Assembly (NCBI GenBank): GCA_032622095.1
Contig: CP136064.1
Location: forward strand, 2,480,001 to 2,544,000
Length of the DNA: 64,000 bases
Direction of reading: 5' to 3'
DNA from: Siphonodentalium dalli
Taxonomy: Eukaryota > Mollusca > Scaphopoda > Gadilida > Siphonodentaliidae
Positions 5,668-57,455 of this stretch are shown piece by piece. Under the pieces are notes generated by a model. It had not been told where the DNA came from. It ran no database searches and saw only the letters and a list, made by a program, of their open reading frames with translations. Numbering within the stretch: position 1 is the stretch's first letter; the number at the start of each line of letters is the position of its first letter. Both the position numbers and the translations under genes were made by a program.

Positions 5668-5832
5668 TATATAGAGGTTCTCTAACGAGTTATGTTGGGA
5701 TATAAGATTTTATGAAAAGAGTTCGATAAATTTGATTCACAACGAGTCGTAGACGAGTTGTGAATAAAATCTATCTAAAGAGTTTCATAAAATCTTATAT
5801 CCCAACATAACCAGTTGAAGATCTGGTATATA
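5668..5832. mobile_element. Foldback element with about 55-bp arms
   Basis: Left arm starts GTTATGTTGGGATATAAGAT at 5689; right arm ends with its reverse complement at 5812. The loop holds AACGAGTCGTAGACGAGTT. The left flank, ATATATAGAGGTTCTC, resembles the terminal motif of the foldbacks at 7347, 34421, 43887, 49768, 57046 and 57356, though the stem sequence differs. The right flank reads GATCTGGTATATAAC. Confidence 0.75.
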
Positions 5833-6119
5833 ACATGAAAAACACTGAAGCTTTATGCCTTTTTAACAACATCAGCTCTGCAGAGAACACGCAAACTATA
5901 TACAAGTCTTGTGTTGGCTCAGACGCTTCACCACTATACGTCAGTACTGCGCTACACTCGCAACGAAATAGTCCCTTTCAGTTTCGTCTTTATTTGACGT
6001 CTATTGGGTTATTTATTGGTAACATTTGTCAATAATATAATTTTAATAAAAAGAATAATCAGTTTTCAATAGTAATTCAGTTTCTCGTTATGTCACGCGC
6101 GCAGGTATACAATGCAAGT

Positions 6120-6182
6120 GATTACCGCTTGGACTATTAGCCACTTGGACTAATTGATTACCGCTTGGACTATTAGCCACTA
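6120..6182. repeat. 36-bp direct repeat, about 1.8 copies
   Basis: GATTACCGCTTGGACTATTA begins at 6120 and again at 6156, each followed by GCCACT. Confidence 0.85.
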
Positions 6183-6244
6183 GAAGATATGTAAAAATTA
6201 ATTAATTATATTTATATGTTTCCTCCTTTCAATCTGATTGGGAG

Positions 6245-7084
6245 ATGTGTTCAAAAAATCCAAGTGAACGAGACCGTTTATTGATTGCATCAATTTGGTC
6301 CACTCAGGCATGGTTTTCGCCTCTGTTTGAGATGCTAGTGCGCCCTCCTCTTATGTTACCTCAGTCCGAGACTTTACTAACGATGCCGAACACACATCAG
6401 CTTCACCCTCTTCAGACTTATATGGTGTTGATGGCATGTCGACTATCAGGGAGTCTTACACGCGTCAGGGATTTTCTCCAGACACAACCTCTATACTCAT
6501 GTCATCCTGGAGACCGAGAAAGCAGTACGATACTTTCCAGAAGAGATGGTTTCACTTCTGTGGTGAAAGGGCATGTGATCCATTTTCAACAACTGTAAAC
6601 CTTGTGTTGGTTTTCTTGACTGGTCTTTATAATTTAGGCCTTAAATTTTGTGCCATAAACACTGCCAGATCATCTCTTGGTGCATTAAGTTTGATTCCTT
6701 TTGAGTCAACATCCGTTGGTGACCAGATTTCTTAAGGGTGTTTTCAACACAAGGCCACCAGTCGCTAGATACATTCATACATGGAACATTTCAATTGTGC
6801 TTTCTTATCTGCGACATCTTGTGCCTTTGGAAAAACTGAGATTCAAATGCTTATCATATACGCTGGTGATGCTTATAACTTTAACGTGTGCTTCACGGAT
6901 GCAGACTGTTTGTTCTTTAAGCCTTTATAATAATATGTCACAGAATGACTCCGAATATATTTTCAATTTTGTATCAGTGCTTAAAACTAGTCGACCAGGC
7001 TGTCTTTCGAAGCCTCTGCGTCTTGTTAAATATGACGAGGTGAAGTTATATGTATATAGGACATTACGGGAATATTTGCTATGA
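6245..7084 (+). pseudogene. Degenerate DIRS-type retrotransposon (RT/RNase H end plus tyrosine recombinase)
   Basis: Three plus-strand pieces in alternating frames resemble the end of a DIRS polyprotein. The first (6245-about 6436) carries LLIASIWSTQAWFSPL, typical of the region just after reverse transcriptase/RNase H. The second (6436-6720) matches the N-terminal core-binding part of a tyrosine recombinase (QYDTFQKRWFHFC). The third (6701-7084) carries HPLVTRFLKGVFNTRPP and the catalytic-Arg region TCASRMQTVCSL, then LLKTSRPG-like VLKTSRPGCLSKPLRL. The frame shifts near 6436 and 6710 break the gene. The frame stops at 7084, before the expected His-x-x-Arg and the Tyr nucleophile, so it cannot encode an active recombinase. 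No split direct repeats of a complete DIRS element were found nearby. Family assignment is from recalled DIRS/Ngaro patterns. Confidence 0.75.
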
Positions 7085-7346
7085 ACTCAAAAATTTGAGT
7101 GAGCAAAAGCAGAAAACACTATTGAAAAAATTTATGATGAGAAACAAACATATCCCCATATCATATACATGTACATGAAAATGTATGCCAATAAATACGC
7201 CAGAGTCTTTAGTTATCTGGGACTATTTCTTTACGCGGGCAAATAACGTATAGTTACGTGGAATGTCATCGCCTGCCTTATAGAAGCCGATGTTGGTTTC
7301 ATGTCCCATTTGTTGATTTAAGTATGCTTTGTCGAGGGTATGAATC

Positions 7347-7508
7347 ATATAATAAATAGAATCTACAACTTGTCCCCAGTTTATAGCGGAAATTACAAAA
7401 ATTTGTTGGTAAATTTGTTGCTTTGGCAAGATCCAGACCTAATTTACTGGACTCGTTTTGTAAATTCCACTATAAATGGGGACTCGTCGTAGATCCTCTA
7501 TTTATTTT
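7347..7508. mobile_element. Foldback element, ATAATAAATAGA-ended
   Basis: ATATAATAAATAGAATCTAC at the left pairs with GTAGATCCTCTATTTATT at the right (7479-7498). Inside, CCCAGTTTATAGCGGAAATT pairs imperfectly with the region before GGGACTCG. It is closely related to the element at 43887-44062 and shares the end motif of the other foldbacks. Confidence 0.7.
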
Positions 7509-7668
7509 TCCCCAACCTCATCATTTCCAGTGCTTTTTACAATGAAAATCCGAAAGCATTCTGTGGAGCATGTGCTCAATTTTACTATAATCTTCAGCCT
7601 ATTGTCATCTTGGTATTGTTTTTAATATTGCTGATCAAAATCATTGTCATGTGGGGATCGTAAGTTTG

Positions 7669-8072
7669 TTAACCCTTTACCCAACAGAACGGCCCTGTGC
7701 CAATGCATTCTCTTATATATGCGAGTCGACCATAGGTCGCCTCGCATTATATATAAGAGAATGCATTGGCTTAACACATATTAAAAATGATAAAATTGTC
7801 AAAGAATGTAGAAACATATTATAAAATTTGTTAAAAAATGTAAGAAAAAATGGTAAAAAGTGTTAAAAAAAGATTTTTTTTAGGCCAATGCATTCTCTTA
7901 TATATGTATTTGCACAGGGCATAACTGTAACCATCACAATGTGGTCAATGAACCGGTTCCAATGATATCCATATTTGTATTGTGTTATTGTTATTGAGAC
8001 AGACCCAAGATATTTTAGGCTGTTGAAGCTTTATTTGTACGTTTTTGGCCATTTTGTTGGGTAAAGGGTTAA
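7669..8072. mobile_element. TTAA-flanked (piggyBac-like) MITE with 14-bp perfect TIR
   Basis: TTAA target duplications flank both ends (7669-7672 and 8069-8072). Perfect terminal inverted repeats CCCTTTACCCAACA / TGTTGGGTAAAGGG bound a 396-bp interior without a transposase. Two inverted copies of the AATGCATTCTCTTATATATG motif family lie inside (7699-7774 and 7884-7920). A TTAA target and a CCC-start TIR are the piggyBac signature; mobilisation by a piggyBac transposase elsewhere is inferred. Confidence 0.85.
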
Positions 8073-8400
8073 TACAAGGTTCATAAAATATCACAAAATG
8101 CGACAAGCTACACGACAGGTGCACATTCGGCGAAAGTGCACCAGTCCAAAATCGTCACCTCAGTGTGCTTTCAATTTTATTTCAATGCTTCTCGGTTTCC
8201 ATGCAGCTATTTTTGGCTAATATGAAGAGTCGAGGCACCGGGATATTATCATAGGGCTGTATTCCACCCAGGGATGTGGCGATGGGGAATTTGAGAGGGG
8301 TCTTACTCTCACCCTCCAACTTATATATTACACCACTTATAGGTTGAAATTCTGAGTTGGTTGATTATCCAACAACTAATTAGTGGGACATTTGTTGTTT
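8073..8400. other. No gene recognised
   Basis: Unique-looking sequence between the TTAA element and the 430-bp repeat; nothing supported. Confidence 0.4.
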
Positions 8401-8829
8401 TATTCCACACCCATTGACGTGAGTCACATGTATTCAATGGAATCCCAGCCATTGTATACATATTAGTGTATACCTCTAGTGGAATACAAGCCACGACGTT
8501 GTCGCCAAGAAAGATGACGTACATTACATCGATCATCCGCTTCCGGTGACCCCCCTCCATAATTACTGGATATTTGTCAGACTTAAATCATAAAGGTAGC
8601 TATAGTAACAATGAAGGTGACATTCATGGATTGAACTTATCTGTCTAAATGGTGTAGAATAAATACTGAACACATCTTGCATCATAATCTCGAATCCTTT
8701 ATCGAACTCGGACGGCGCAAAGTTATATTTCGCTCGGGCTACGCACTCACAAAATATATCCTTGCGCCATCCGCAACTCATTCGATAAAAGAGTCTCGAT
8801 TAAGATGCATGTTGTGTTCTGTCTATTTA
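8401..8829. repeat. 430-bp interspersed repeat, copy 1, with terminal hairpin
   Basis: Matches 20071-20508 nearly throughout, starting TATTCCACACCCATTGACGT and ending CTGTCTATTTA. Its right half (about 8651-8829) is an inverted repeat: AGAATAAATACTGAACACA with GAACTCGGACGGCGCAAAG pairs with CTTGCGCCATCCGCAACTC and TGTTGTGTTCTGTCTATTT. The AATAAATA / CTATTTA ends resemble those of the foldback set. The frames on the minus strand (8321-8781) are read-through of the repeat. Confidence 0.8.
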
Positions 8830-9041
8830 GACCAACTCTAGCCAATCTTTTCCATATATAGTCCAAAGTTTTGGTCTGAGATTGCTATCAATTGGAAATA
8901 TACCAACATTATAGATAGTGTCTAGGTTGGTTGGAAATTTCCAAAAGTTGGAAAGTTCAAACCCAGTGGTCCCCAATTTGGACCCCTCTGGACAGCAGCC
9001 ATTTTGAATCAGATGTGTTTGGTGAATATGTGGGGTGTCTT

Positions 9042-9066
9042 GGGGGGGGGGGGGGGGGGGGGGGGG
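9042..9066 (+). repeat. 25-bp G run
   Basis: Uninterrupted G tract, directly abutting the MITE that starts at 9069. Length may be affected by sequencing error. Confidence 0.8.
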
Positions 9067-9068
9067 CC

Positions 9069-11780: not shown

Positions 11781-12005
11781 CTTCCGGAAATTTTTCAAAA
11801 TCCCTGTCCCAATGCATTCTCTTATATATGCGTGCATCCCATAGGGAGCCTCGCATAGATAAGAGAATGTATTGGCCTAACAATATTTACCTTGACACTG
11901 TAAGCCAGTACATTCTCTTATCTATGTGAGGCTCCCTATTGGCGACTTGCATATTTAAGAGAATGCGATGGCACATAATCTTTAATGCTGGACCATCAAG
12001 TAAGG
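11781..12005. mobile_element. AATGCATTCTCTTATATATG family MITE (double hairpin)
   Basis: Two successive hairpins built from CCAATGCATTCTCTTATATA / TATATAAGAGAATGCATTGG with GGGAGCCTCGC / GCGAGGCTCCC arms (11810-11876 and 11904-11972). The flanks (AGGAGCTTCCGGAAATTTTT at left, CTTTAATGCTGGACCATC at right) match the copies at 19679 and 56195. The end flanks are partly decayed, so no target duplication is visible. Confidence 0.7.
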
Positions 12006-12221: not shown

Positions 12222-12930
12222 TTACCACTTTAGAGGGCGTTCTCTAGCAGATTAACAGTATTTTACCCTAACAGTAAAAAGCCATAACGCCCGGCATCAA
12301 ACTGGAAGTTATGTGTTAGCGATATTAATGGCCCGCAACGCCCGACATCAAACCAGAAGTTTATGTGTTAACGATATTAATGGCCCGCTTCCGGGTTGCG
12401 ATTTTCTAGGAATCGAATCGGACGCAACCTAATTTCGGAATTTCTGTTAAAACAAGATTATAGTATATTATTAAGAATAAAACTGATATTTTACTGTAGT
12501 AGATGTAATAACAGACCGACAACACATTCAAGGTGAGTAAGTGTTATCTAACAAATGGAATAAATTAGATTTCTGACTGAATTTTCCTTAGATATGGCCT
12601 TATTTTCGTGGTAAATAATATTAATTAGTCATGTGACAATTTGTTTGCAACAAACAGACGACACATGTTTTGAATTATTAAAAGAGTTATTATTTCAGTT
12701 GACATATTGCTGCTTACTCACTCATCTAATCTATGTTCTAGTTTGGGTTTCATTTCAGAGAGTGGTAATAATAGTAATAACATGATTTTGTCGGGCGTTA
12801 GGTTTATTAACGGCCCTCCAGAAATAATTAACAGCCCTCGGGCCATTAAAGGCCCGATACGAAGTCTGTTAATCATTTCTGTTGAGCCGTTAATAAACCA
12901 TTACGCCCTCCAAAATCAAGTTATTGGTAT
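12222..12930. repeat. GGGCGTT/AACGCCC repeat cluster with hairpin and 52-bp duplication
   Basis: ACGCCCGGCATCAAACTGGA (12286) is repeated in diverged form at 12337, giving two 52-bp units that end TATTAATGGCCCGC. At 12789-12918, GGGCGTTAGGTTTATTAACG pairs with CGTTAATAAACCATTACGCC as a foldback with GGGCCATTAAAGGCCCG at the apex. The outer AGAGGGCGTT (12230) and ACGCCCTCCA (12902) may be the ends of one element. A donor-like AAGGTGAGTAAG sits at 12535, but no exon is supported. Confidence 0.55.
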
Positions 12931-12944
12931 ATTAATTTATACAA

Positions 12945-14284: not shown

Positions 14285-14348
14285 CCAAACAAGTAATTAT
14301 TTTTATCATGGATTGTTTATTGCTGAAAATTGAAGTTGAAGCGTAAAT

Positions 14349-14688
14349 ATTTATTTTCTGAAAGTTTGCTTGACGAAGATGCTCGTTGACAATTGATTGA
14401 TTGATAGTAGATAGCTGAAAATAAAGTGTTATATTTGTAATTATAAGCCATCAACGTCGTTTTTCGGTTGATCTATGAGCGTATAGACCGATCAGTAGAC
14501 GAATAACATACTTAGTATATTTATTTTCTGAAAGTTTGCTTGACGAAGATGCTCGTTGACAATTGATTGATTGATAGTAGATAGCTGAAAATAAAGTGTT
14601 ATATTTGTAATTATAAGCCATCAACGTCGTTTTTCGGTTGATCTATGAGCGTATAGACCGATCAGTAGACGAATAACATACTTAGTAT
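14349..14688. repeat. Exact 170-bp tandem duplication
   Basis: TTATTTTCTGAAAGTTTGCT at 14351 recurs at 14521, and I found no difference between the two 170-bp units by eye. The duplicated unit includes the left arm of the foldback at 14605-14790. Confidence 0.9.
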
Positions 14689-14790
14689 AATCCGCTTCGC
14701 GGAATTATACAGTATGTTATTCGTCTACTGATCGGTCTATACGCTCATAGATCAACCGAAAAACGACGTTGATGACATATATATTGCAAA
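14605..14790. repeat. Foldback with about 80-bp arms
   Basis: ATCAACGTCGTTTTTCGGTT through AATAACATACT pairs with AGTATGTTATTCGTCTACTG through AACGACGTTGATG. The apex is TAATCCGCTTCGCGGAATTA, itself palindromic. A second copy of the left arm, from the tandem duplication, lies 170 bp upstream. Confidence 0.9.
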
Positions 14791-19678: not shown

Positions 19679-19943
19679 TTAACCATTCCATGACAGCAGT
19701 TTCCTGAAATTTTGCGAAAACCCTGTGCTAATGCATTCTCTTATAATTATGCGAGTCCCCCATAGGGAGCCTCACTTATATAAGAGAATATATTGACCTA
19801 AAAATATTTACCTCAACTTTGTAAGCCAGTGCATTCTCTTATATATGCGAGGCTCCATATGGGAGACTGACATATGTAAGAGAATACACTGGCACAGTTT
19901 CTTTAATGCTGAACCAGCATAGCTCCCATCATGAAAGGGTAAA
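19679..19943. mobile_element. AATGCATTCTCTTATATATG family MITE, most complete copy
   Basis: Begins TTAACCATTCCATGACAGC and ends TCATGAAAGGGTAAA, inverted ends with a degraded TTAA/TAAA target. Between them are two hairpins of the AATGCATTCTCTTATATATG / GGGAGCCTCGC type, then CTTTAATGCTGAACCAGC. This copy defines the ends of the family seen at 11781, 43213, 46545 and 56195. Confidence 0.75.
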
Positions 19944-20070
19944 CCATTTCGATACTAAATGGATTTCCCCATCCAATTATAACTGTATACATTGAAGTAG
20001 TCTATTATTGGGGTGTTCACAAACATTGAGCAGATGACAAACAGATAACAAGTGATTAAGGATACCTATT

Positions 20071-20508
20071 TATTCCACACCCATTGACGTGAGTCACATG
20101 TATTCAATGGAATCCCAGCCATTGAATACATAGTAGTGTATACCTCTAGTGGAATACAAGCCGGAACTATTCTTGTTGACGTTGTTGCCAAGAAAGATGA
20201 CGTACATTACGTCGATCATCCGCTTCCGGTGATCCCCCCATAATTACTGGTTATTTGTCACAATATAGGTAGCTATAGTAACAATGGAGGTGCTATTCAT
20301 GGATTGAACTTATCTGACTGAACAGTGTAGAATAAATACAGAACACAACTTGCATCATAATCTCGAATCTTTTATCGAACTCGTTGCGGACGGCGCAAAG
20401 TTATATTTCGCTTGAGCTACGCTCTCGCGAAATATATCCTTGCGCCATCCGCAACTCATTCGATAAAAGAGTCTCGATTAAGATGCGCATTGTGTTTTGT
20501 CTATTTAT
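20071..20508. repeat. 430-bp interspersed repeat, copy 2
   Basis: Direct copy of 8401-8829, with the same terminal hairpin (about 20328-20508; apex GCTTGAGCTACGCTCTCGCG). It ends CTATTTATTATACGCTCAAC, a phrase also found at the end of the foldback at 43887-44062. Confidence 0.8.
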
Positions 20509-20698
20509 TATACGCTCAACAGTGAATTATAGAAAAAAACGCGTTTCTATAAACATGTTATCACCCAGAAGGGGATATAGAAGAATATGCTTTCACACTA
20601 GCTCATGCTTGCGACCGATTCACTTGCGTGTACCGATACTGTTTTCGGTTTGTACTGTTGAAGAAGGACAAAGTGAAAGAACCCATTGTGATATTCTA

Positions 20699-27275: not shown

Positions 27276-27335
27276 GTTTTGAACAGGACAATATTATAAA
27301 GTTATTATACTATGTTGTGTACAGTATGTGTTTTT

Positions 27336-27431
27336 CTTGTACGAGTCCAGGTTGTGGTGAAAAGTCATATTGGACGAAACACGCAGTGTCAAGTCCAATA
27401 TTACTTTTCACCACAACCTGGATGAGCACAA
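27336..27431. repeat. Short foldback with about 38-bp arms
   Basis: CTTGTACGAGTCCAGGTTGT, then GGTGAAAAGTCATATTGGAC, pairs with its complement ending GAGCACAAG. It lies immediately before minisatellite element B. Confidence 0.8.
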
Positions 27432-27432
27432 G

Positions 27433-28330
27433 AATGAAAGTGTCAATGATACTGTAGCTCAACTTAGGTAGGGGAATAATTTAATGGTTGACAGTAAATG
27501 GAGGAATAGGAAAGGTGCTACATGTAATTGAAATGTCTAACCTGTGCCAAAGGATTTAGTCATGCAAAGAGTGAAATCCAAGATGGCTGCTGGCGGCCAT
27601 ATTTTTTTGCCGAATGACCCCAAAAGGACTCGTTCCCATCTACATTCCAATTTCAACAGCGATGACAAATTTCATGATGATCAGACTAAAGGTACAACCT
27701 GTAGCCCGTGCTAAAGGATTTAGTCATACAAAGAGTAAAATCCAAGATGGCTGCTGGCGGCCATGTTTTTCGTCCGAATGACCCCCAAAATGACTCGTTC
27801 CCATCTACATTCCAATTTCAACAGCCATGACACATTTTATGATGATCAGACTAAAGGTAGAACCTGTAGCCTGTGCTAAAGATTTAGTCATACAAAGAGT
27901 AAAATCCAAGATGGCTGCTGGTGGCCATGTTTTTTGGCAGAATGAACCCAAAATGACTCGTTCCCATCTACATGTCATTATTAACATTCTTGACAAATTT
28001 TATGATGATCAGGCTAAAAGTATGACCTGTAGCCCGTGCTAAAGAATTTAGTCACACAAAGAGTAAAATCCAAGATGGCTGCTGGCGGCCATGTTTTTGG
28101 GCCGAATGACCCCAAAATGACTTGTTCCCATCTACATGCCAATATTAACATTCATGACAAAATTCATGACGATCAGACAAACAATTTCATAATGATCCAA
28201 CCAAAGGTACGACCAAATGTTGACATTAACATTTAGATCAGAATGATTAATTTTGGGGTCATTCGAAAAAAAAACATGGCCACCAGCGGCCATCTTGGAT
28301 TTCAAAATTCAATCCATTAGTTGAGCTATA
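27433..28330. mobile_element. TIR-bounded minisatellite element, copy B
   Basis: Left end AATGAAAGTGTCAATGATAC then TAGCTCAACTTAGG. CAAAGGATTTAGTCATGCAA-type phrases start at 27548, 27711, 27875 and 28039, giving a regular period of about 164 bp. The last unit (28243-28320) is inverted, and the element ends TTAGTTGAGCTA. Confidence 0.85.
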
Positions 28331-34321: not shown

Positions 34322-34420
34322 TCCCCAGGCCAGATCGTTTTTTTTCAATTCCAATTTTTCACATTTTATGACTTCTGAGCATTGTTATGACATTAACAGC
34401 TGCTTAAGGATATGATAGGC

Positions 34421-34611
34421 ATAATATATAGAGAATACCTACGAGTTTTGGTTGAATACCCGAATTATCTCATGAGTGGGTGCAAGGAAGTACAGAATTT
34501 CCACGAGCGGCTGCAAGCCGCGAGTGGAAATTCTGTACTTCCTTGCACCCACGAATGAGATAATCCGGGTATTCAACCAAAACCCGTAGGTTTTCTTTTT
34601 ATTATATGCGC
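34421..34611. mobile_element. Foldback element with about 75-bp arms
   Basis: ATAATATATAGAGAATACCT at the left; the arms run from CCTACGAGTTTTGGTTGAAT to the apex CCACGAGCGGCTGCAAGCCG and back to ATTCAACCAAAACCCGTAGG; the right end is TTCTTTTTATTATATGCGC. Its apex (CACGAGYGGCT / AGCC...) and TCATGAGTG segment resemble the foldback at 57046-57222 although the outer stems differ. Confidence 0.9.
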
Positions 34612-34990
34612 TATAAACCGCACCAAAACTGCTAATTTTGTCCTACAGTTCACTTCAAATTGTGTTTAGAAAGCTTCGACATTTGCATTTTGTTTACATT
34701 CCATCAATTGATTTGCTCACCACCGAATGACAAATATCGAGCATAGCTGCCATAAGAAATAGTCCCCATTGTTTTATTCTGAAATGATGCGAGAAAATTA
34801 ATGTATACATAATTTAGTGATAAGAATATATTAAAACAAATGAGTTAATATTATAACAATTAAATAACAGTTTATGAACCGTGAAAATCAACAATTAAAA
34901 CAATAGTCCGGCTGTTATTTATACGCTTTGAAACTTAATGTTATTCGCCGCTATAAACCGGAAGTAATCTCCGAAAAAGTAATACTATTG

Positions 34991-35055
34991 TGTTATCCAT
35001 CGAGTCGGTCAGTGTTATCCATCGAGTCGGTCAGTGTTATCCATCGAGTCGGTCC
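34991..35055. repeat. 22-bp tandem repeat, three copies
   Basis: TGTTATCCATCGAGTCGGTC plus AG, three times with no difference until the last base. Confidence 0.95.
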
Positions 35056-35236
35056 AGGCGATGGATATAACGCTCTACGCCACGGCAATTTCCCACTATT
35101 TAATGGGGAAGCATATAATAAATCAGTTTTACTTGCTTTAGAGTTAATGATTTGAGGTTTCAATTCAGTAGGCATGGCATCTAACATGCATCATTGTAAT
35201 TCTGTCCATGATGTATCTACATTTAGAAGGGTAATG

Positions 35237-35309
35237 GTATGTGTTGTTTGGTACATGCATACAAACACATAAGCGGTGATGCTGTAATGTTATCACTTTT
35301 TTATTTCAG
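35237..35309 (+). other. Predicted small intron before the pogo-like ORF
   Basis: A GTATGT donor at 35237 and a TTTTTTATTTCAG acceptor ending at 35309 would remove 73 bp just upstream of the ATG, leaving it in the downstream exon. Confidence 0.4.
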
Positions 35310-35328
35310 GATTCTTCTCCATTCAATC

Positions 35329-36033
35329 ATGACACGGGTCTATCGCAGAACACCCGGTGCTCGCCGATACCAAGATTACACATCTGAGAGTTTGAGCAAG
35401 GCCCTCGAATGTATAAACAGTGGTGTGATGTCACAGAAGGAGGCAGCTGCCTCCTTCCACATACCCAGGAGTACACTAAAAAACAAACTCAGCAAGATGC
35501 ACAGTAACAATGTCGGCAGGCCGGGTGTGTTAACCGTAGATGAAGAAAAGACAGTTGTTGATCATATTATCGCTATGAGCGATTACGGATTCCCGCTTGA
35601 CAGCTATGATTTGAGGGTATGTGTGAAAAACTTTCTGGACAGGAAAGGAACAACCGAGCCCAGATTTCAACAAAACTTTCCTGGTAAGGAATGGTGCTTT
35701 TCGTTTCTAAGACGAAACAGATCCCTAACTAAGCGATTCGCATCAAACATCAAGAAAAAAAGAGCAGCCATATCGCCAGAAACAATAGAAGGGTACATCA
35801 GCAATCTCGAAGTTGAGTTAGAAAACGTGGAACCTCATAATATCTACAATTACGATGAGACTAACCTGACTGATGATCCCGGAAATAAGAAGATTATCAC
35901 AAAAAGGGGCTGTAAATACCCCGAACGCGTGCTTAATACTTCGAAAGCCAGTATCTCCTTAATGTACTGTGGATCTGCTGAAGGAGAGTTGCTACCACCT
36001 TATGTGGTATACAAAGCGGAGAACCTGTGGTAG
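35329..36033 (+). CDS. Pogo/Tigger-like transposase, C-terminally truncated (234 aa)
   Basis: Start chosen at ATGACACGG, where similarity to the family begins; the frame is also open upstream to 35239. Residues about 12-58 form an HTH_psq DNA-binding domain (SQKEAAASFHIPRSTLKNKL), 64-140 a CENP-B-type HTH (LTVDEEKTVVDHI, then PGKEWCFSFLRRNRSLTKRF), and 170 onward the start of a DDE_1 domain with the first catalytic Asp at D176 (NYDETNLTDDPGNKK) and YVVYKAENLW at the end. Family members continue about 200 more residues with the other two acidic residues; here a TAG follows Trp234, so cleavage activity is not expected. AATAAA lies about 9 bp after the stop. The preserved frame over all of 234 codons suggests either a young truncation or retention as a DNA-binding protein. 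Confidence 0.9.
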   Translation: MTRVYRRTPGARRYQDYTSESLSKALECINSGVMSQKEAAASFHIPRSTLKNKLSKMHSNNVGRPGVLTVDEEKTVVDHIIAMSDYGFPLDSYDLRVCVKNFLDRKGTTEPRFQQNFPGKEWCFSFLRRNRSLTKRFASNIKKKRAAISPETIEGYISNLEVELENVEPHNIYNYDETNLTDDPGNKKIITKRGCKYPERVLNTSKASISLMYCGSAEGELLPPYVVYKAENLW

Positions 36034-36641
36034 TTAAAATAAAACACCTTTAAATGTTGGGGGCATCACGATATAGGCAAGCGAGCAAAGAGAGTTTTTG
36101 TCATCATAGGCTATTTCGCTATTGCGAAATGGGTGATCGTTACATGTAGCATAATTACATTGAACGACATATTTAATTATGTTTGTGTGTGAATAACTAT
36201 GCTGAAGACTTCCAATAACATATTAAATGGTCAAATACGCGCGTTCTTATCCGAATCTCGACATGCCATGTTTGTGTATATGGTACACTACCGTTCCAAC
36301 AAATCTTGCTGATACTTCCGTTCCAACACATCTTGCTATTTATCATTTTGCTGGTGAGAAAGTTTATGTTCATGTTGGTGCTATTTATATGCACAGAAAA
36401 AGGTACCATTACTCGGGAAAGCAACCTACTGAAATGCATATTGATGTACGCGAATCATGTTGCGTTCTCACACAATGCAGTTATCCCAAATCCGCGCTCT
36501 TTAAAATAGAATTGGCTGCATGGCTGGCCTACTTCTGATGGCACAGTATGTTACGCACCTGTCCGACTAAGTCACTTTGAACCCAAAATGTATACAAAAT
36601 TCGCGCAAGCTCTTCACATTGAAACGGGGTACCCACAAGTG
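36034..36641. other. No gene recognised
   Basis: I could not find the missing pogo C-terminus (second Asp region, L-P-P-N-x-T-x-x-x-Q-P-L-D) in any frame. ACTTCCGTTCCAACACATCT-like phrases form a 25-bp direct repeat at 36290-36335. Confidence 0.5.
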
Positions 36642-37093
36642 ATATATATGTGTGTGTTCTTTATAGACTCGGACCGATTGAGCTCAAACTTGGTGTCTAC
36701 GGGAAGTGTCATGGACGGGTTCAAAACTTGGTATCTACGGGAAGTGTAATGGACGGGTTAAATTGTGACCCCGACCTGACCTTGACCTTGAAAATGATCA
36801 ATTCAGGGTCAAATCGGGTAAAATTGAAAAACAAAAAATTAAATTAAAAAATTAAAAAGGCACAATTAACTCATTGAACAAAAAAATTAAATTAAAAAAT
36901 TAATTAAAAGCATTAAGTAAAAAAGCCAGTAAATTAAAAAGGCACAATTAACTCATTGAAAAACAAAATAATTTAAATAAAAAATTAATTAAAAAAATAA
37001 AAAATTGTCATAAATTAATTAAAAACATTAATTTAAAAAATTAAAATTGTCATGTTTCTGACGATTGCCGCCAGTGGCGGGCTAACCTGCTAG
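36642..37093 (+). mobile_element. Non-autonomous Helitron-like element
   Basis: Starts with TGATATATATGTGTGTGTTC and the shared GACCGATTGAGCTCAAACTT. It ends with the stem-loop GCCGCCAGTGGCGGGC, then TAACCTGCTAG before T. The middle is an A-rich stretch of AAATTAAAAAATTAA repeats (36830-37060). Confidence 0.75.
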
Positions 37094-38754
37094 TATTATT
37101 ATATATTGTGGCTCCCTGTTCAAAATCCGACTCTGCGCATGCGCGAAACAACAGACCCCCCCCCCCCCTTCACAAATTTAGCTGCTAAAATCATGGTAAC
37201 GAAATTGTGACTTATTACAAGCAAAAATATATTTAATGTGTGCTTTGTTCACAATATTAAATATTGAAATTGATCTCCTTAGCCAACGATAAAAACGATA
37301 AAAAAAAATAATTCTTTTATTTTAATATGCCTCTGCGCATGCGCGAAGAAACAGACCCTCTGTAGCCAGTTCGACAGCCAAAGTCACGGTGGTAAACCGG
37401 GGACTCGTGTGTGCAAAATAGAAGTACAATTCTTATGGATATGTGCGTTTATTATGCTGTATTTCCGTGTCAAAAATCGTATGGTTTCCGGACCGGTATT
37501 CCGGTCTCCCGGGATATAGGAAAATAAGGATCGGACCGGTATTCCGTTCTCCCGGGTTGAAAGGATTAATGCATTTCTATGAACCTGCCTTTTGCTATTT
37601 AATTATTTAAGTTGATTTAACCATTTACATGTACTTCATATGTGACAAATATTTGATATCTTCTTCTGACCATACCTTATATAAGTCATAAATACTAATT
37701 ATTGGTGCACGCAATACTCTATTAGTAGGCTGCTAATGTTTATCCTTTCCAACCTTTATAAAAAAATCTTTCACCCATCTATACTATTCTTCACTGTTAC
37801 TTGTGTTTGTTTCTCATTCTCATCTAATCAACTATATATAGCTAAATATAATGATTATTATTATGAGCTAATAAACAAATTCAAACACAAAATTCATACC
37901 GAGTCAGAAAAGGATACCATAGTACAGAGCACTTTTAGTTTTGCCATAGACGAAATAATGGTTTTACCAATTACCGGTATAAACCAGAATTTGTCAAGTC
38001 ACCGGAACAAAATTGTCCGAATAGCAGAATTTAACCAGTTAATTTACTTTTCATTCCGAATATCGATCGAGCATGAGGTTGTCACTGGTTGAGTGGTTGT
38101 GTAAATTATTCCAGACGTCAACTTGGCAAAATTAATGCCAGTGATGTGATTCTATCGAACAGTAAGAAATGGTTTTCAGTCTCTAGTATCTGTTTAAAAA
38201 AAACGTGATAATATCGTTAACCGCGGTTTTATTTTTAAAAAATCACTGTTTTTATTTTCGTTAATATGGCCCAGCCCTAATAATGGGTGTGTAACAATTC
38301 ACACACAGTATTATGTGGAATTTATCAACAGACCATGAAGGATGCTACAATACAAGATCGTTGGCAGTTAACATGTTGATCTATTCACACACTAGTGTCA
38401 TTCTATCTATTATATATATCTATATTAGTTACCTCGAGCAGGTCAATCCTCCGCTGAACTCCGGACTTCCGGAAAACGAATGGTACATCTATATTCTTGA
38501 CTATCATTGCCGCCAATATGACTAAAATTCTGTAAAGAGAAATGATTTACTCATTAGAATACAGCCCTCAATATATCAACCCTGGGAATGAGGGTCTATT
38601 GCCAAGACGACTAAAATAATGCCTATTGCCTAGGCAAAATTTTATATATTCTTTTGTTATACTCTTTTGACTAATGCACATTATGTGCAGAAGATTATAC
38701 CCATACCTGGTTATACGAGCACCTATACGACAATTATAGTCCTGCCATATAGAA
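37094..38754. other. No gene; two NRF1-like sites and a MITE end
   Basis: CTCTGCGCATGCGCGAA occurs at about 37132 and 37331, each followed by ACAGACC; this matches the NRF1 palindrome. GACCGGTATTCCGGTCTCCC recurs at about 37493 and 37535. A 118-codon frame (37736-38092) with a hydrophobic start has no recognised domain. TTATTTTCGTTAATATGGCC then CAGCCCTAA near 38265 looks like one end of an unpaired DNA element. Confidence 0.45.
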
Positions 38755-43212: not shown

Positions 43213-43395
43213 TCAACCCTTCGATGACTGGAGCTGTGCTGGTGCAGTATTAAAGGTCCTCTGCCAGTGCATTCTCTTATATATGCAAGTCTCCCATAGG
43301 GAGCTTCGCATATATAAAATAAATGCACTGGCTTACAAAGTCAACATAAATATTGTTAGGCCAATCTATTCTCTTATATATGAGGCTCCACAAAG
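43213..43395. mobile_element. AATGCATTCTCTTATATATG family MITE, 3'-truncated
   Basis: Opens TCAACCCTTCGATGACTGGA, matching the complement of the right end at 19939, then GTATTAAAGGTCCTCTGCCA and a TGCATTCTCTTATATATGCA hairpin. The second hairpin is broken after about 43390. Confidence 0.7.
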
Positions 43396-43690: not shown

Positions 43691-43886
43691 TTATGAATAT
43701 CCAATTATAAGCTTTGTTAATTCCATTACCCAAATAAAATTGATTTTAAACTATAAATTTTATACTTTTTATTGAAAAAGCAAGGTCCCAATCGTCCAAA
43801 CCCAAAAAACATTGCATGTCTTTTTAAAGCCGATGTTAATTTCACTTCCCATTTGTTGATTTAAGTATATTTTATCTAGGTTTTAG

Positions 43887-44062
43887 ATCATATAATAAAT
43901 AGAATCTACCCAGTTTACAGTGAATTTACAATACTTGTCCAGTAAATTTAAGTCTGAACCTCATCAAAGGCTCGGTCTGGACTTAATTTACTGGACTCGT
44001 TTTGTAAATTCTGCTATAAACTGTGGACTCATTGTAGATCCTCCATTTATTATATGCTCAAC
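43887..44062. mobile_element. Foldback element, ATAATAAATAGA-ended
   Basis: ATATAATAAATAGAATCTAC pairs with GTAGATCCTCCATTTATTAT. The inner arms, TTACTGGAC and GTCCAGTAAA, flank an apex near AAAGGCTCGGTC. Diverged copy of 7347-7508; the right flank ATGCTCAACA is shared with the repeat ending at 20508. Confidence 0.8.
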
Positions 44063-44118
44063 AATAGATTGTAGAAGAAAACGCCAACAGATAATACAGT
44101 AATTGTTATCCACACCCA

Positions 44119-46879: not shown

Positions 46880-47560
46880 AAACAGATTTACCAGTACATA
46901 ACACAAGATTTTGGACCGATTTAATCAAATTTGGTGTGGTGATTCGGGGTACCCTTGGCAGAGTTATAATGGTGTTAATTTTTCAATTTTTTTTAACTTA
47001 TTTAAAAAAATTAAAGGGACACATTGGAAATCTTTTTATCATAATCATCAATATCTAAATGAAAACAAATGACAATGTCAATGACATTTTTTTTATTATT
47101 ATTATAAAAGTTAAAAAAAAATTAAAAAAAAAATCAATTCAATTTTTCAATTTTTTTTCGAAAAAGGGTCATAACTCCTTTAAAATTAATCGGATCAAAC
47201 CCATATTTGAACTCGATCTGTATTTTGGGCCGAGAAACTCACATACCAAATTTGGTTCCGATCAGATAAAAAATGTTTGAGTTATGGCAGAATGCGTGAA
47301 TTCTAAGTCGAAAAAGGGCCATAACTCTGTACAAAAAAGTTGGATCAAACCCATATTCGAACTCGATCTGTATTTTGGGCTGAAAACCCCATATACAAAA
47401 TTTGGTTTTGATCAGGTAAAAAATGTTTGAGTTATCGCATTACACGTAAAGTGTCTACGGACGGACGGACAGACGGACGGACAGACGGACGGACAGACGG
47501 ACGGACGGACGGACGAACGACGAGTGGTCAATCCGGACAACGACACTATGTTTACCATAC
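46880..47560 (+). repeat. Interspersed repeat with two 150-bp units and a (GGAC)n tail
   Basis: AAAAAGGGTCATAACTCCTT and AAAAAGGGCCATAACTCTGT start two diverged units, each with GAACTCGATCTGTATTTTGG and AAAATGTTTGAGTTAT. A (GGAC/GGACA) tract lies at 47458-47515. Similar repeats are common in marine invertebrate genomes, as I recall. Confidence 0.7.
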
Positions 47561-49282: not shown

Positions 49283-49767
49283 ATATGCACAGCACGTATA
49301 ATACAAAGGAAATCTAGTGTTTTTGAGTGGATAAGAAATTACCTCATTTGTGAACACGTCAAAGTTTATTTTTTTGCTCATGGCAAGCCATTAGCGAAAA
49401 ATAAACTATTGTCTCAGTCTGAGATCATTTTCGGTATCCACTAAAAAGACTAGATATTCTCTATTTATATTCACTTGTCAGTGTCTATCTCCAACTTTTA
49501 CAATTAACTACTGTACATGTATGTGCTACCGGTAGTCAATAGCGGCTATCTGGTACTATTATATGGAGATTTTCCACCCTGTAAAAGGCTGTAATTCTGA
49601 CCTGTTTTATAATGCATAGTACTATTACTCAAGAGTAAATCTATCTTAAAAGTTAGGACCTTACCTTGGAACATACCCGAAGGTTGTTCTTTCTGCTTTT
49701 AACACCCATAAATCAGCCTTCGACCGCTGGAATTGAAAAATATGTAATATTTGAATAAAAGTTGCTG

Positions 49768-49930
49768 TAAATAGAGGATCTCACATGAGTTACTATTTTA
49801 TACGGAATTTATCAACCGAGTTCACTAAATTCGATTTGAGCCGAGGTTTACCGAGGCTCAAATAGAATTTAGAGGACGAGGTTGATAAATTACGTATAAA
49901 ATAGGACGAGTGTGAGATACCTTTTATCAC
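49768..49930. mobile_element. Foldback element
   Basis: AAATAGAGGATCTCACATGA at the left; arms CTATTTTATACGGAATTTAT and CAACC pair with the region ending CGTATAAAATAG; the apex is GAGCCGAGGTTTACCGAGGC. The left terminal motif matches other foldbacks, but the stem is unrelated. Confidence 0.8.
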
Positions 49931-51987
49931 ATGATCAAATAAACCCGAAGCAACGCGAAATATTCATCGAAAACAACAATCATAAACTACAGCGATCGCA
50001 AGTTATTTGAAGAACGCTGTGACGTCATCGCACGCGCTGATATTAAACGTGTCTATTACCGATAATTATGAAACTGCTTTTATGGCCAAATTATGTGATA
50101 AATTATAATAATACAGATTATATTCAGCTGCCAGATCGAAGGCCATTTTTTTAATGGAGCATTGTATCATTTAAAACTCGTAAAATTTGTCATTATGCTG
50201 CCATCAAGTCAACCTGAATGTCATTTTTTATAGATACGGTTAACAGGAAGTTGTTCTGGCACTTTTTCAAGTAATGGTATGGAATATAACAAGAGATTTT
50301 ATCACCGCTAAATATTCAACTGAACAGAGTATGTTTCCCTCAATTAAAATTTTAAATATAGCAATTTAGTCAAGGTTCCATAGGCATAAACCAACTTGTG
50401 ATGTATGGTAGAATCTATTAAGAAAGTAAGAATAATTGTTACCACCATGCAGTCCTTCCCAGGAGATGGGAGTAATTGCTCTCTCACATGTACGCACTCA
50501 TAAATTAAAATCAAAGTTAAGTTTCAATTAATATGGATGCAATATTACACCTGTCTTCCGAATTATGACAGCAAATAAATGCTGTCGCTGTGATTTCTCA
50601 TGGAAAGGATTGCATGATAATGTATCCATAGTTTCATGTACATGTACATGTAAGTGAAAACAAACTGTCACAAGCTAGGAATCTTTGCAATAAAAATATA
50701 AATTAAAATGTCAATGTAAGAATTACTTACCATAGTGAATGTCATATCTTAGTCGTGTTCAGCTCTCCACTGATTTGGAGTGTGGATAAATGGATGGATG
50801 AAGTATGGATGGATTGATGGGTGAGTGGATGGACAAACCAATAACTGTGGGTCGCTCACCAGACTGTAAAGACTGAGACTATGAAGACTACAGCAGTCAG
50901 TACTCGACAAAATCACCTAAGACAAGTAGTTCTAAACATATGGACATAGCGCTGGAGGGCTCTTCACCTTGAGATTTCTAATTGCACACCACTGACAAAC
51001 CACAAACCCCTTTACCCTTTTTAAAGGACAACCATACCACAGTACTAAGTTCACAAAAATACTTTAAATAGCACATCCCTCTTAGGTTTAATTTGATAAC
51101 TGGTACCGGTACTTCAAGCTCTCAAACTTTTGAAAATTACCAACCTGACATCCCATTAGGAAAATCAAATCAAATTATGAGAACAATTCTAGCCTAATTT
51201 TGGTGTGAAAATCTAATTTACAGCTAATGTTGTATCAGATAATATGTAAACGGTCAGCAAGGTCGCTAGATTCCTCTTTCGGGGTAAATATTTTAATAAT
51301 TTTATGAAAGATGTAAACAAAACTTTTTCATGCAATTTAACTTTTTTGTTAACCAGAGCTTTTGTTCAATTTACATTAACTTTTTGAAAATATATTTGGC
51401 TTTAGGAGCATGATGTTCCTAAATATGATTAAGTATAGCTAACCATTTCTAGATCAAAGTTTTTTATTTTTGCCCAATTACACATTTCGAGGTGGCATTA
51501 ATCAATAAAAAATGGCGGCCTTCGCCAACAATAATTTTTGAATAACGAATAAATTAGTCTACATTAGGTAATTTAATCTAATTTTAGAGTGGGTTGAAAC
51601 AGTTGATTAGTATATCTCATATTCGCGTATGTATACCCTAGGATGCTTTGCTTCTGCGGCTTTGCTTCACTGTTGAAAATTTGATCAAAGTCAAAAATCC
51701 AGCCCCACTACATTCCCTCCCCACCAAGGCAGCCTGGAAATCAATATTATTATACCAGTACCAAACGGCATAGATAAGGGTAGGGAAGGTGGGGGAGAGT
51801 TAAATCCCTGTTCTCTGCCCGTATTTGAACAAATATGAATCCCCATCTATGAGATCCATTCAACTAGTAATTTCAAAGGGTAGATTTAAGAGTTGAAGTG
51901 AATTGATTTCACTCAAAAGTTTCCTAAAAAATTACACTATTTGAACAAATCTGAACCCAAGGACCCTGTTAAGATCTCACCAAGACA
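49931..51987. other. No gene recognised; one donor-like site
   Basis: On the minus strand, CATTCACTATGGTAAGTAAT at about 50730-50750 has an ATG directly before a consensus donor, which could end a 5' UTR exon. Upstream are short GATGGATGGA-type repeats (50785-50835). Nothing else is supported. Confidence 0.35.
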
Positions 51988-53167: not shown

Positions 53168-53179
53168 GTAAGTTGTGAT

Positions 53180-55258
53180 ATGATATGGGGTGGAGGGCTG
53201 TTGGTTGGGGCAGGGTGGGAATCTGAGTCATGTGGGGGGGTGATGGAAAGTTTGCATGATTTCATTAAAGATTAAAAGTTCATAACTCTGCGGATGTCAA
53301 AATGGTGTTAGTTTTCAAATGTTATAACATGTTTGATTTGGGGTGGAGGGGCTGTTGGTTAGGCCATCCTTAATAATATGTTTGTTTGCCCTCGCCTGAC
53401 CGACCCTCGTTTTTCCTGCCGACCGGAATTTTTTTATTGGTGATTGTAAAAAATGTTTTTTTGTGTTGTTATCGCCGCCGGACGTATAATGAGTCCGCAA
53501 ATTTTCTAATTTTCCGTGACAACATGCTTGCATTTGAAACTGGGAATATATTTGTCTTTGGTTCACACTTCATCCGAAGTTCCCTAGCAATAACCCCCTC
53601 CCAATCTTCCCTCCACCCCCCCCCCCTGTGGTTAGCGTCGAACGAAGGAGATCTGTGTCATTCAGTTCAGTTTATTTAGGAAATTGCGGCGATAATTTTG
53701 TGCCGCACCCACAATACTCTGGGGTAGAGAAAACTGTTTCTGAATGTCCTCGCGCACACTATCTGTCTATCTATATATTCAAGTGCCGTACAGCTCCCCT
53801 TTCGGGTGTTATACATGTATGCGCAAATTGTCCAAAGACTAAAATGTCATTTGAATATATTATCAGAAACACATGCTTCGGTTAGTGGTCAGATTTAGAA
53901 TTACTCCCCTTGCACTAGTCATCAACTGATGAGAGTTTGAATTCAATAAACATAAATATTATAACACAACACTGGTGCAGTCACGCCTGGAATATGGCGA
54001 TGATTATTGTACTATCATAATAGTTTTACACATTTTCTTCGACTGGGATATGGCACTTTTTAGTGTGTCTCACTGACAATATTCCGCCGTTTTCCATAGC
54101 GCATTCAGCAAACTCCGTCAGATGTTATGATCGATGTGAAGGTTGTTTCAAATATGTCGACTGCAAACAATTTCTTAATTGGGCCCGCTAAAAAATAGCT
54201 AATTTAGATGCTCTGACTGCGCAAACAGATGTCTCGGCTTCGGACAATGTGGAAATAAAATTTACGCTCTGCGTGAAGGTTGTCAAAACTGGTGTTGAAG
54301 ATAGGAAACCAGTACAGGGTGATCCTGCCTGTGTGTGGTGACTGGCAAGGAAATCCCAAAAAGAAACTCTAAAACTAAATAAACATTTGAATCTTTCAGT
54401 ATATTGAGGCTTTCAATATAAAAGTTTAATACATGTCTAATATATTTGACGATTGAAAGGGGGCTGTCGGCTTCCATTGGGTCATGAAGCCATGGCATCA
54501 GAAGCAAATCCGATGAACCACAAAGTGCCGGGTCCTGGGTAGATTTGCGACTGACCAAATCATGACTCCATGACCCAATGTACATGTATGTCAAACAATC
54601 ATCAGTCAATCCTTATATCTCCATGCATCATACTAGTATTCAAATAAAGGCATTATATAAATAAACATTTTGCATGACAACTCTGTTGTCTTCTGAAGTA
54701 CGAAAATGCAAAACTCAGTTTGGTTTATACTTGTCAGTTGACACTCAGCAACATCACTCGTAATGAAGTCAACTCAGTGCACACCAGTAGATTTCTGAGA
54801 TCATATTGATTTCAGAGGTCAATACTAAGCAGTGGATATATAATCCTTTCAAGGATGTTTGTTTACTTTGTTAGTTGTTGCATTGTTTGTTTAATTTTTC
54901 AATTATTAAATTTATAATAAAATTTTATCTTTCATTGAACATTCTTCGATATCTTCAAACGATCCATATATATTAAGTTTTTTGAAGAAAAAAAAAGGAT
55001 TTTGCCTACCTATAGCTACCTACCCACTCTGAAAATGTTGGGTAGGGAGAGGGCAAACACAAAATCTTTTAAGGATGGCCTTGCAGCAGGATGGGGTTCT
55101 GGGGTCATGTGGGTGGGGGGGGTGGAAAGTTTCTCTGTGATTTCATGAAAGATTAAAGTTTCATAACTCTGCGGATGTCAAAATGATGTTAGTTTTCAAT
55201 TTTATAACATGTTCGAAACAAAAAATGGTAAGGGGGGCAGGGTGTTGGTTTGGGTCAT
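53180..55258. repeat. G-rich ~170-bp repeat, split by an inserted element
   Basis: GATTAAAAGTTCATAACTCT, then GCGGATGTCAAAATGGTGTT at 53270-53310, recurs at 55151-55192, with GGGGGTGATGGAAAGTTT before both. The copies lie on either side of the element at 53361-55081. Confidence 0.7.
53361..55081. mobile_element. AGGCCATCCTTAA-ended element, 1.7 kb
   Basis: Left AGGCCATCCTTAATAATATG then TTTGCCCTC; right complement of AGGCCATCCTTAAAAGATTT then TGTTTGCCCTC. Subterminal GACCGACCCTC and GGTAGGTAGC echo the element at 20699-22019, so the two are probably related. No transposase frame is recognised. Confidence 0.65.
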
Positions 55259-55259
55259 G

Positions 55260-55260
<1 letters not shown>

Positions 55261-55306
<46 letters not shown>
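55261..55306 (+). repeat. 46-bp G run
   Basis: Longest homopolymer in the window, embedded in the G-rich repeat; its length may be unreliable. Confidence 0.8.
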
Positions 55307-55307
<1 letters not shown>

Positions 55308-55955
55308 GAGGAGGTGATGGAAAGTTTCCGCTGATGTCATCCCAGAAGCCCGCCAACTGCCCCAAAACGTAGGTTGATTTATTGATAAAAAACACTCAAC
55401 TCAAAATTATGATTTAAATTTTTGTTCACTATTTCCAGAAATTTTCACTATAAATAGTGGATACATTGTACATGCATACAATACAACAGTCTCTAAACTC
55501 TTCATTATCTAGAGCCTAGAACTTGGCATTCAGCATTTCTTTAGATTGAATTGAAATTCAATATATTATTGGCTTCTGCAGCTTTTTTTCTTTTTTCTGC
55601 CTTTTGTCCTAGCTATTTTTGAGGGCTGACAATTATCTGAACACTGAGAAAAACTGATTCACATGCATTGTTGTTCAGTGTAGCAGTGAAGTATGTCTTT
55701 AAGTGATGTACATGTACGTTTCACTCAGACTATTCCAGTCCGAAAACAACGGTTCACATGAAGAATGAGTGTTTGTAATTTGATCACTGCTGTGTCCCGG
55801 TTACCGACCACCGTATCCAATTTTGTGATTGAAAGCTGGTTTCTCAACAATATTTTGTTTTATAATTGTCATCAGACATGTACATTGTATACTGGCAAAA
55901 TGCATGTAAATTACATTAAATTTAGCTCAATCAGGATAACCACCCCCAGTAACCG
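55307..55955. other. No gene recognised
   Basis: Nothing supported beyond short AT-rich phrases. Confidence 0.4.
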
Positions 55956-55956
55956 G

Positions 55957-56012
55957 AGTGTGTGATAGCAGAGGATTGAGTAATAGCAGAGGAGTGAGTA
56001 ATAGCAGAGGAG
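55957..56012. repeat. 18-bp tandem repeat, three copies
   Basis: GAGTAATAGCAGAGGAGT with minor changes. Confidence 0.9.
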
Positions 56013-56194
56013 TCAAAATATATTGTTTTCACACCCCTCTGGTAAACGACAAACATAATGGAGAAAGAAATAGCCCAGGCATCCAACAATGTGTTCCCCT
56101 CGGTAAAATGATCATCCATTGTGATATTTCCAGCTTCAATGAAATGCTGGTACCCATCATATTCAAATGAAATTATTTTGTAACACTGAGACCG

Positions 56195-56545
56195 CAGCAC
56201 TTGCAGCATTAAAGATACTGTGCCAGTGCTTTCTCTTATATACCGGTATGTAAGTCTCCTGTAGGGAGCCTCACATATAAGAGAACGCACTGGCTTACAA
56301 GGTCAATGTAAATATTGTTAGGCCAATGTACTCTCTTGTATGTGCAATGCTTCCTATGGGAGACTCGCATATATATTAGAGACTGCATTGACACACGTTT
56401 TTTTCTAAATTTCTGGCAGCTTCAGTCATAGAAAGGTTAAAGATCCTGTACCAGTGCATTCTCTTATATACAAATGTATAAGAAAATGCATTAGCACAGG
56501 ATTTTATCCAAAAAATCAGGAAGCTCAAGCATGGAAGGGTTAAAG
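56195..56545. mobile_element. Two adjacent AATGCATTCTCTTATATATG family units
   Basis: Unit 1 (56195-56440) has both hairpins and ends TTCAGTCATAGAAAGGTTAA. Unit 2 (56441-56543) has one short hairpin (TGCATTCTCTTATATACAAA and its complement) and ends AAGCATGGAAGGGTTAA. TTAA stands at 56209, 56437 and 56540. Confidence 0.75.
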
Positions 56546-56554
56546 CTGACCAAG

Positions 56555-56650
56555 CACAGCTTATACAGGGCTGTTCCTGGTATATTGTTTGGGTACAGCT
56601 TCTACAGGGGCTGTTCCTGGTATATTGTTTGGGTACAGCTTCTACAGGGG
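56555..56650. repeat. 41-bp tandem repeat, two copies
   Basis: GGCTGTTCCTGGTATATTGT then TTGGGTACAGCTTCTACAGG, twice in tandem. Confidence 0.9.
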
Positions 56651-57045
56651 CCATAGGCATATCCCGATGGCTGACATGAGGGTGGGCATGAAAGCGGGTA
56701 TCCTCACAATAGAGGGGGGCTGTGGGGGCTCTGGAGAGAAAAGAGTGAATCTAGGTCGTTGATAGCCTTATATTGCATTTCAGTAAAAAATACAACCCTT
56801 AGTGCACTATTACTCTTGGGCTCCAAATAAACATGCATGCACGTTTATTATTTTCTTGGGAAATTCCCCCCCCTGCACAGTGCTTATTTGGATCTGCTTA
56901 TCAATTTTAAAGGCTACCAGGGACATATCCAGGCCGTTTTTCATACCGTTTACTGGTTTGGGCGCCCAAACTACAGGTACCCAAAAAAAACCCATCTTTT
57001 TAATTTTTTTTTTTTTTAATTCAGGTCCCAATTCATATCATAACA

Positions 57046-57222
57046 AGATATATAGAGGATATCCACACTTTTTCAGTGGATATGGGTTATATCTCATGAA
57101 TGAAGACAAAACATTGAATTCCACGAGTGGCTTTAGCCACGAGTGGAAATTCAAATGTTTTGTCATCACGAATGAGATTTAACCCATATCCACTGAAAAA
57201 GTGTGGATATTCTGTTTATTAT
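57046..57222. mobile_element. Foldback element with about 75-bp arms
   Basis: GATATATAGAGGATATCCAC, arms through CAGTGGATATGGGTTATATC to the apex CCACGAGTGGCTTTAGCCAC, and back to GTGGATATTCTGTTTATTAT. Near-perfect stem. Confidence 0.9.
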
Positions 57223-57355
57223 ATACTTTAGTTACTCGTCTATGGCCCCCAATGAATGTCAATACATCAGAAATTTCACCAATGGGATATCACTTATATC
57301 TCACTAGTGGGATATCACTTATATCTCACTGCTAAAACCTTATAATTCATGGGCA

Positions 57356-57455
57356 AGTATATAATAAATAGAGGATATCCACACTTTTCAGTGGATATGG
57401 GTTATATCTCATGGGTGATGACAAAACATTGAATTTCCATGAGTGGCTTTAAGAC
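57356..57455. mobile_element. Foldback, left arm only
   Basis: TATATAATAAATAGAGGATA then TCCACACTTTTCAGTGG, a second copy of the left arm of 57046-57222, cut off just after GAGTGGCTTTA. Confidence 0.85.

Follow-up and report, generated by a model that had tools for sequence, protein, structure and literature searches.

The 64-kb stretch of DNA analyzed here (the window) contains a family of long foldback hairpins with common ends and stems of several kinds, and all of our results concern this one window and three stem lineages. The window is apparently eukaryotic, and probably animal, genomic DNA, since it holds many dispersed repeats and the seven open reading frames (ORFs) that were scanned included a RhoGAP match and a Psq match. 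The initial annotation had listed long foldbacks at 5668, 7347, 34421, 43887, 49768 and 57046 and a half copy at 57356, all of which we located. The family extends beyond these: with three further hairpins (8.66-8.83, 20.33-20.51 and 49.29-49.47 kb), nine full hairpins are assigned to it through their ends, in addition to the half copy, and another hairpin (27.31-27.46 kb) has the inner boxes described below and none of the shared ends. Hairpin I was counted as end-bearing, despite its partly lost end, because it is a copy of J. Ten full hairpins (A, B, I, J, K, C, D, H, E and F) were studied, and the half copy G is excluded from all counts of ten (Table 1).

Table 1. Hairpins of the family and a flank that two of them share.
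Feature	Name by kb	Coordinates	Strand	Stem group	Boxes	Remarks
A	5.7	5662..5838	+	1	ACGAGT at 5685, 5742, 5753	GA strand is +
B	7.3	7341..7508	-	1		GA strand is -
I	8.7	8658..8831	-	3		Within 430-bp repeat, 8399-8829; end motif partly lost
J	20.4	20328..20515	-	3		Within 430-bp repeat, 20069-20507
K	27.3	27310..27458	+		One G·A/G·A box and one GA/AA box	No recognizable end motif
C	34.4	34416..34612	+	2	34472, 34503, 34520, 34551
D	43.9	43880..44059	-	1
H	49.3	49290..49472	-	2	No intact G·A box	Most decayed
E	49.8	49766..49931	+	1	49785, 49816, 49841, 49851, 49876, 49906	Three G·A/G·A tandems
F	57.0	57045..57224	+	2	57096, 57123, 57139, 57168
G (half copy)	57.4	57361..57451	+			End motif and 5' arm of F (92% identical), ending at the apex
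5' end and ~30 bp of outer flank common to D and J		44042..44084	-	D, 1; J, 3		Matches 20500-20542 of J; 83.7% over 43 bp, E 5.9e-7

Shared ends and three groups of stems

In a scan of the window allowing up to three mismatches, ATAATAAATAGAGGAT had 17 matches where 1.93 were expected, and none of 100 shuffles reached that number, so that the proposed common start of the foldbacks lies far above chance. By eye, 11 of these matches fall at ends of the hairpins and 6 elsewhere. The far end that had been described, TTTATTATAYGC, is present at 34.6, 44.05 and 20.5 kb and is degenerate in others; a consensus for both ends, drawn up by eye, is about YRTATAATAAATAG. The suspicion that a 430-bp repeat is related to the family was also borne out, as this repeat has a hairpin at one end. 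The units are short and non-coding, with inverted-repeat ends common to dispersed copies, as in foldback elements and miniature inverted-repeat transposable elements (MITEs).

To compare the stems, we placed the hairpins in one orientation (H from its end and its resemblance to F) and scored the 5' arms, without their terminal 20 nt, against dinucleotide shuffles; the resulting z values take in the boxes. The nine end-bearing hairpins fell into three groups. Group 1 (5.7, 7.3, 43.9 and 49.8 kb) is held together by the pairs A-E (z = 5.6), A-D (5.9), E-D (9.6), E-B (10.5) and D-B (22.7), with a weak link between A and B (2.8 and 2.0 in the two arms). Group 2 (34.4, 49.3 and 57.0 kb) has C-F at 10.3 and F-H at 8.6, with C-H weak (0.9 and 2.4 in the two arms), and group 3 (8.7 and 20.4 kb) consists of I-J at 26.6. 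All 26 cross-group pairs gave z < 3 in both arms. K falls outside the groups, though the pair K-H reached z = 4.1 in arm 2.

At the level of sequence, the stems are therefore homologous within each group, whereas between groups they look unrelated while the ends are kept. This supports the initial view of one family with common ends and differing stems, and it restricts the statement that most stems are unrelated to comparisons between groups. The apex said to be common to the 34.4 and 57.0 kb copies was seen as well. The arms had been called near-perfect; they do pair, but with 11-22 mismatches per 74-102 aligned pairs that wording was generous. A joint alignment across the groups was poor, and the model built from it was not used.

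Some relatives also share sequence outside the hairpin. About 80 bp on one side are common to B and D (the repeat over 7267-7506, which includes hairpin B, recurs at 43.8-44.05 kb), and about 250 bp are common to I and J. A tail common to the whole family was considered and rejected, as BLAST of the other members and their flanks found neither the B/D nor the I/J tail. At its far end the 250-bp tail of the 430-bp repeat carries GTGTGGAATAA, which resembles the inverse of the sequence that follows the hairpin, TTATTCTACAC; this repeat is possibly a nested or composite element.

Tandem G·A mismatches lie at recurring places on one strand

When the arms were aligned to each other with no bonus for G·A, pairing broke down at recurring boxes of YGAR type, such as ACGAGT. 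The two arms carry these boxes in one orientation, which sets them opposite each other as tandem mismatches, 5'-GA-3'/3'-AG-5'. We counted 14 such G·A/G·A tandems in seven of the ten hairpins (A 2, I 2, J 2, K 1, C 2, E 3, F 2), whereas random placement of an equal number of mismatches gave a mean of 0.48 and a maximum of 5 in 20,000 simulations. Eight of the 14 are exact 2-nt interruptions, every one of them in Y-GA-R context (8/8), and the others lie within runs of 3 or 4 mismatches. The bases that flank GA vary yet remain complementary, as in CCGAGG/CCGAGG, TCGAGA/TCGAGA and ACGAGT/ACGAGT. Across all mismatches, G·A outnumbers C·T by 60 to 8, counted on strands that the boxes had partly determined.

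Measured from the apex, the tandems lie at the following distances: 6 and ~31 in A (with a GA/CA box at 63), 6, 31 and 62 in E, 9 and 40 in C, 9 and 38 in F, 41 in K, 38 and 56 in J, and 7 and 56 in I. A GA/AA box occurs once each in B, D, J and K. If ACGAGT decayed at its CpG, the two expected products would be ACAAGT and ATGAGT.

Of 39 foldbacks detected across the window, 10 were members of the family and 29 were not (these 29 include a foldback at 57276-57418 that overlaps the half copy G); G·A/G·A tandems occurred in seven of the members and in one of the others. No hairpin had boxes of mixed polarity; each kept to one strand. Counting on the end motif alone, so that K introduced no circularity, gave 6 of 9 hairpins with the motif and 2 of 30 without it (Fisher p = 0.0006). 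A separate control set consisted of 22 hand-picked foldbacks, with the A/T-run foldback at 46979-47128 excluded and the 12.8 kb control shortened. At its full length this last foldback (12763-12938), which has no end motif, contains one G·A/G·A tandem in G-GA-G/C-GA-C context, and it is possibly a distant relative or a chance occurrence. The mismatches are the most informative part of the stems.

Paired change in the stems

Within groups, the two sides of the stem often changed together. In group 1, both sides had changed in 32 of 81 pairs (12.5 in shuffles, at most 8 in slid controls), and the six pairs without any standard cell were exactly the three tandem boxes. Group 2 gave 27 of 81 (11.2 in shuffles, at most 8 in slid controls), with 3 of 81 positions never paired, all in boxes 2 and 3. 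Because the structures were derived from these same four and three sequences, the percentage paired is partly built in, and the counts of paired change are less so. Compensatory changes stood against single changes at 19/10 in A-E, 20/7 in C-F, 14/10 in A-B, 9/4 in C-H, 7/7 in E-B and 5/4 in F-H. The two closest pairs had mostly single changes (D-B 2/10, I-J 0/9). This pattern would be expected if active elements were constrained and their inserted copies then decayed freely.

Signals that distinguish the two strands

Further signals bear on the strand. With orientation set by the boxes (for H, which lacks them, by the end itself and the similarity to F), the core ATAGAGGAT fits the 5' end of the GA strand better than its 3' end in eight of the nine end-bearing hairpins; J is tied, and the polarity of I is weak (3 vs 4 mismatches).

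A covariance model built from group 1 only, and run unfiltered on both strands, preferred the predicted strand in all five members of groups 2 and 3 (C, F, J, I and H), with gaps of 8.2-24.9 bits, and also in K, with a gap of 4.8 bits. The gap between strands in 26 control foldbacks had a mean of 3.6 and a maximum of 10.4 bits (p = 0.0004 without K and 0.0008 with K), a range within which the gaps of H (8.2) and K fall. These controls include the foldbacks at 19.0-19.4, 42.16, 52.2 and 57.3 kb and exclude the four hairpins used for training as well as weak hits that appeared on just one strand. Only the difference between strands counts here, because the model gives a score to any long palindrome (95 bits at 14.6 kb).

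At the apices, GNA triloops, all on the GA strand, were found in five of ten members (A, I, J, K and C, of which I and J are relatives) and in one of the 29 other foldbacks (p = 0.002), namely at 14.6 kb, where the triloop is GAA on the minus strand.

A folded single strand as a possible substrate of movement

Together, these observations lead us to view the hairpins as old copies of a non-autonomous, MITE-like foldback element whose substrate for movement is one strand folded into a hairpin, a reading to which we assign a probability of about one half. Kept ends and fixed G·A steps amid pairwise change of the stem suggest that a folded single strand is recognized by some enzyme. In such a mechanism, a protein acting in trans would recognize the correct strand from its structure, with the ends and the G·A boxes as marks. 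Active (master) elements would have to keep both pairing and boxes while the sequence of the stem drifted, and copies would decay once inserted. A constraint on the folding of one strand explains jointly the polarity of the boxes, the paired change and the polarity of the ends.

Several results weigh against this reading. B and D have GA/AA boxes only and H has none, and there was no excess of paired change in A-D (13 compensatory, 14 single) or E-D (7, 9). Correction from arm to arm, in tracts shorter than the distance between boxes, could also yield paired changes. The count of G·T over A·C mismatches (28 vs 19) was not significant, and DNA folding parameters favored the GA strand in five of ten hairpins where RNA parameters did so in nine. 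No clear target-site duplication was seen at ten boundary pairs (eight hairpins at their own ends, J also as the 430-bp repeat, and I solely as the 430-bp repeat). The longest flanking repeats there measured 4-7 bp, where the null distribution had its mean at 4.3 and its 95th percentile at 6; 7 bp was reached only in the two J cases, and the pairs had no common length or sequence. The copies are old, and duplications may have been lost.

Nor did we find relatives or a matching transposase. Viral and genome contig collections, mainly of viruses and prokaryotes, yielded no relative with exact patterns derived from the window, a search that misses diverged relatives. Two contig matches to the end motif (L001 and L002) were identical to each other over the surrounding 50 bp, with ATG directly after the motif, and nine more matched an 18-mer (L003-L011); none lies in a long hairpin, with palindrome scores of 20-36 compared with 118-288 for the ten members. 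Among the 13 ORFs of at least 130 amino acids in the window, seven of which were scanned, there was no same-ended element with a transposase. The scan returned one ORF with a Psq-type helix-turn-helix (35227-36033, plus strand), which resembles a pogo/jerky-type transposase; no inverted ends were seen in 34620-38700.

If one strand folds, DNA is somewhat likelier than RNA to be the molecule in question, because there are two inverted ends, no tail of poly(A) type was seen by eye, all eight exact boxes are in Y-GA-R context and half of the apices are GNA triloops. Both tandem G·A steps in Y-GA-R context and triloops of GNA type have unusual stability when formed by DNA. A constraint at the level of RNA, in which transcription of the GA strand would yield a long hairpin RNA (processed or bound by protein, for instance) that keeps tandem sheared G·A steps, appears rather unlikely to us. 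The stronger RNA folding on the GA strand and the strong covariation are what it would predict, and the folding preferences, taken by themselves, give no favor to DNA over RNA. Against an RNA stand the inverted ends, the lack of significance of the G·T excess, the absence of any Rfam match at gathering score in the window, and the apices, of which five in ten are GNA triloops and none, by eye, is of the GNRA or UNCG type. RNA hairpins would be expected to have apices of those types.

We consider it improbable that the family is an ordinary foldback MITE with subterminal direct repeats, in which ACGAGT would be a double-stranded, one-way transposase site and the palindrome incidental. Such a site would account for a compact hexamer that recurs every ~18-32 bp along the arms, but it leaves unexplained why the boxes lie opposite each other, why the bases next to GA vary and stay complementary, and why the remaining stem covaries.

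The mechanism proposed in the initial annotation, that inverted duplication (template switching) renews the arms from local or captured DNA while the ends are retained, is very improbable even though three stem groups without detectable similarity have common ends and D and J, of different groups, share ~30 bp of outer flank, because copying from arm to arm turns ACGAGT/ACGAGT (tandem G·A) into ACGAGT/ACTCGT (paired) and would have erased the same-orientation boxes that survive at recurring places on one strand each, and because the stems within groups are homologous, with many paired changes and no wholesale replacement. Capture of DNA could still be the source of the step between the three stem groups.

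Comparison with known systems

Several known systems resemble the folded-strand element in part. Tm1 of root-knot nematodes, the small class of which is described as MITE-like (PMC3169594), and Drosophila Foldback4 (PMC2955051) likewise have short inverted-repeat units, shared ends and a variable interior. Tm1 differs in its 9-bp target duplications and in the ~14-bp motifs repeated in its inverted repeats (PMC3169594), whereas the boxes here are same-orientation mismatches and no clear duplication accompanies them. Stem diagrams examined by eye lacked the feature on which we tested membership of the FB type.

The attC sites of integrons (PMC2727003) are a functional analogue only: their sequence is little conserved, their structure is kept, and unpaired hairpin bases mark one strand. 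They differ in being bacterial recombination sites with extrahelical bases; the conserved interruptions here are 2x2 G·A steps and not single extrahelical bases. By analogy, one may tentatively picture a eukaryotic element active as one folded DNA strand, with a recombinase that would read structure (the ends, and sheared G·A steps as strand mark and ruler) while the stem drifts by compensation, although we regard this fuller picture as doubtful.

Helitrons have a hairpin near one end of a eukaryotic element and a nuclease that cuts single strands (PMC4778049). Their hairpin is a 19-bp palindrome and their ends are 5'-TC and CTRR-3' (PMC4778049), whereas most of the unit here consists of hairpin, and its ends, judged by eye, are different from those termini.

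REPINs are also miniature mobile palindromic DNA, although they are bacterial and shorter than these hairpins. A short interspersed nuclear element (SINE) has a head derived from tRNA, 5S or 7SL and an A-rich or simple tail; neither a tRNA nor an Rfam match turned up in the window, and inspection by eye showed no tail. Among titles and abstract openings of mostly open literature, we found none reporting that a transposon hairpin conserves G·A boxes, which is weak evidence of absence.

Neighboring repeats

The window contains other repeats near these hairpins. Dispersed arrays with a tandem unit of ~153-165 bp (AAATCCAAGATGGCTGCTGG...) lie at 15.4-16.4, 23.9-24.4, 27.5-28.3 and 38.8-39.9 kb, and one array adjoins hairpin K, with shared sequence from 27433. 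The arrays recall the satellite-like arrays described for Helentron elements of oyster (PMC7492417). A second family of palindromes (TGCATTCTCTTATATATGCGAG...), at 7699-7770, 11804-11978, 19724-19894, 43263-43332 and 56.2-56.5 kb, has no G·A/G·A tandems, and some of its copies are palindromes of palindromes. A perfect 170-bp tandem duplication (14347-14686) overlaps a long palindrome (14604-14790) with 97% arms and a GCGAAGC apex on the minus strand, an arrangement that looks like a recent rearrangement.

Implications for foldback elements

A common explanation of foldback elements is inverted duplication, which leaves the arms as by-products. In this family the arms act like a structured nucleic acid, as their pairs covary and fixed mismatches are kept on one strand. 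If this is confirmed genome-wide, the folded strand would be the functional substrate, and the occurrence of different stems with the same ends within a group would require no capture of foreign DNA.

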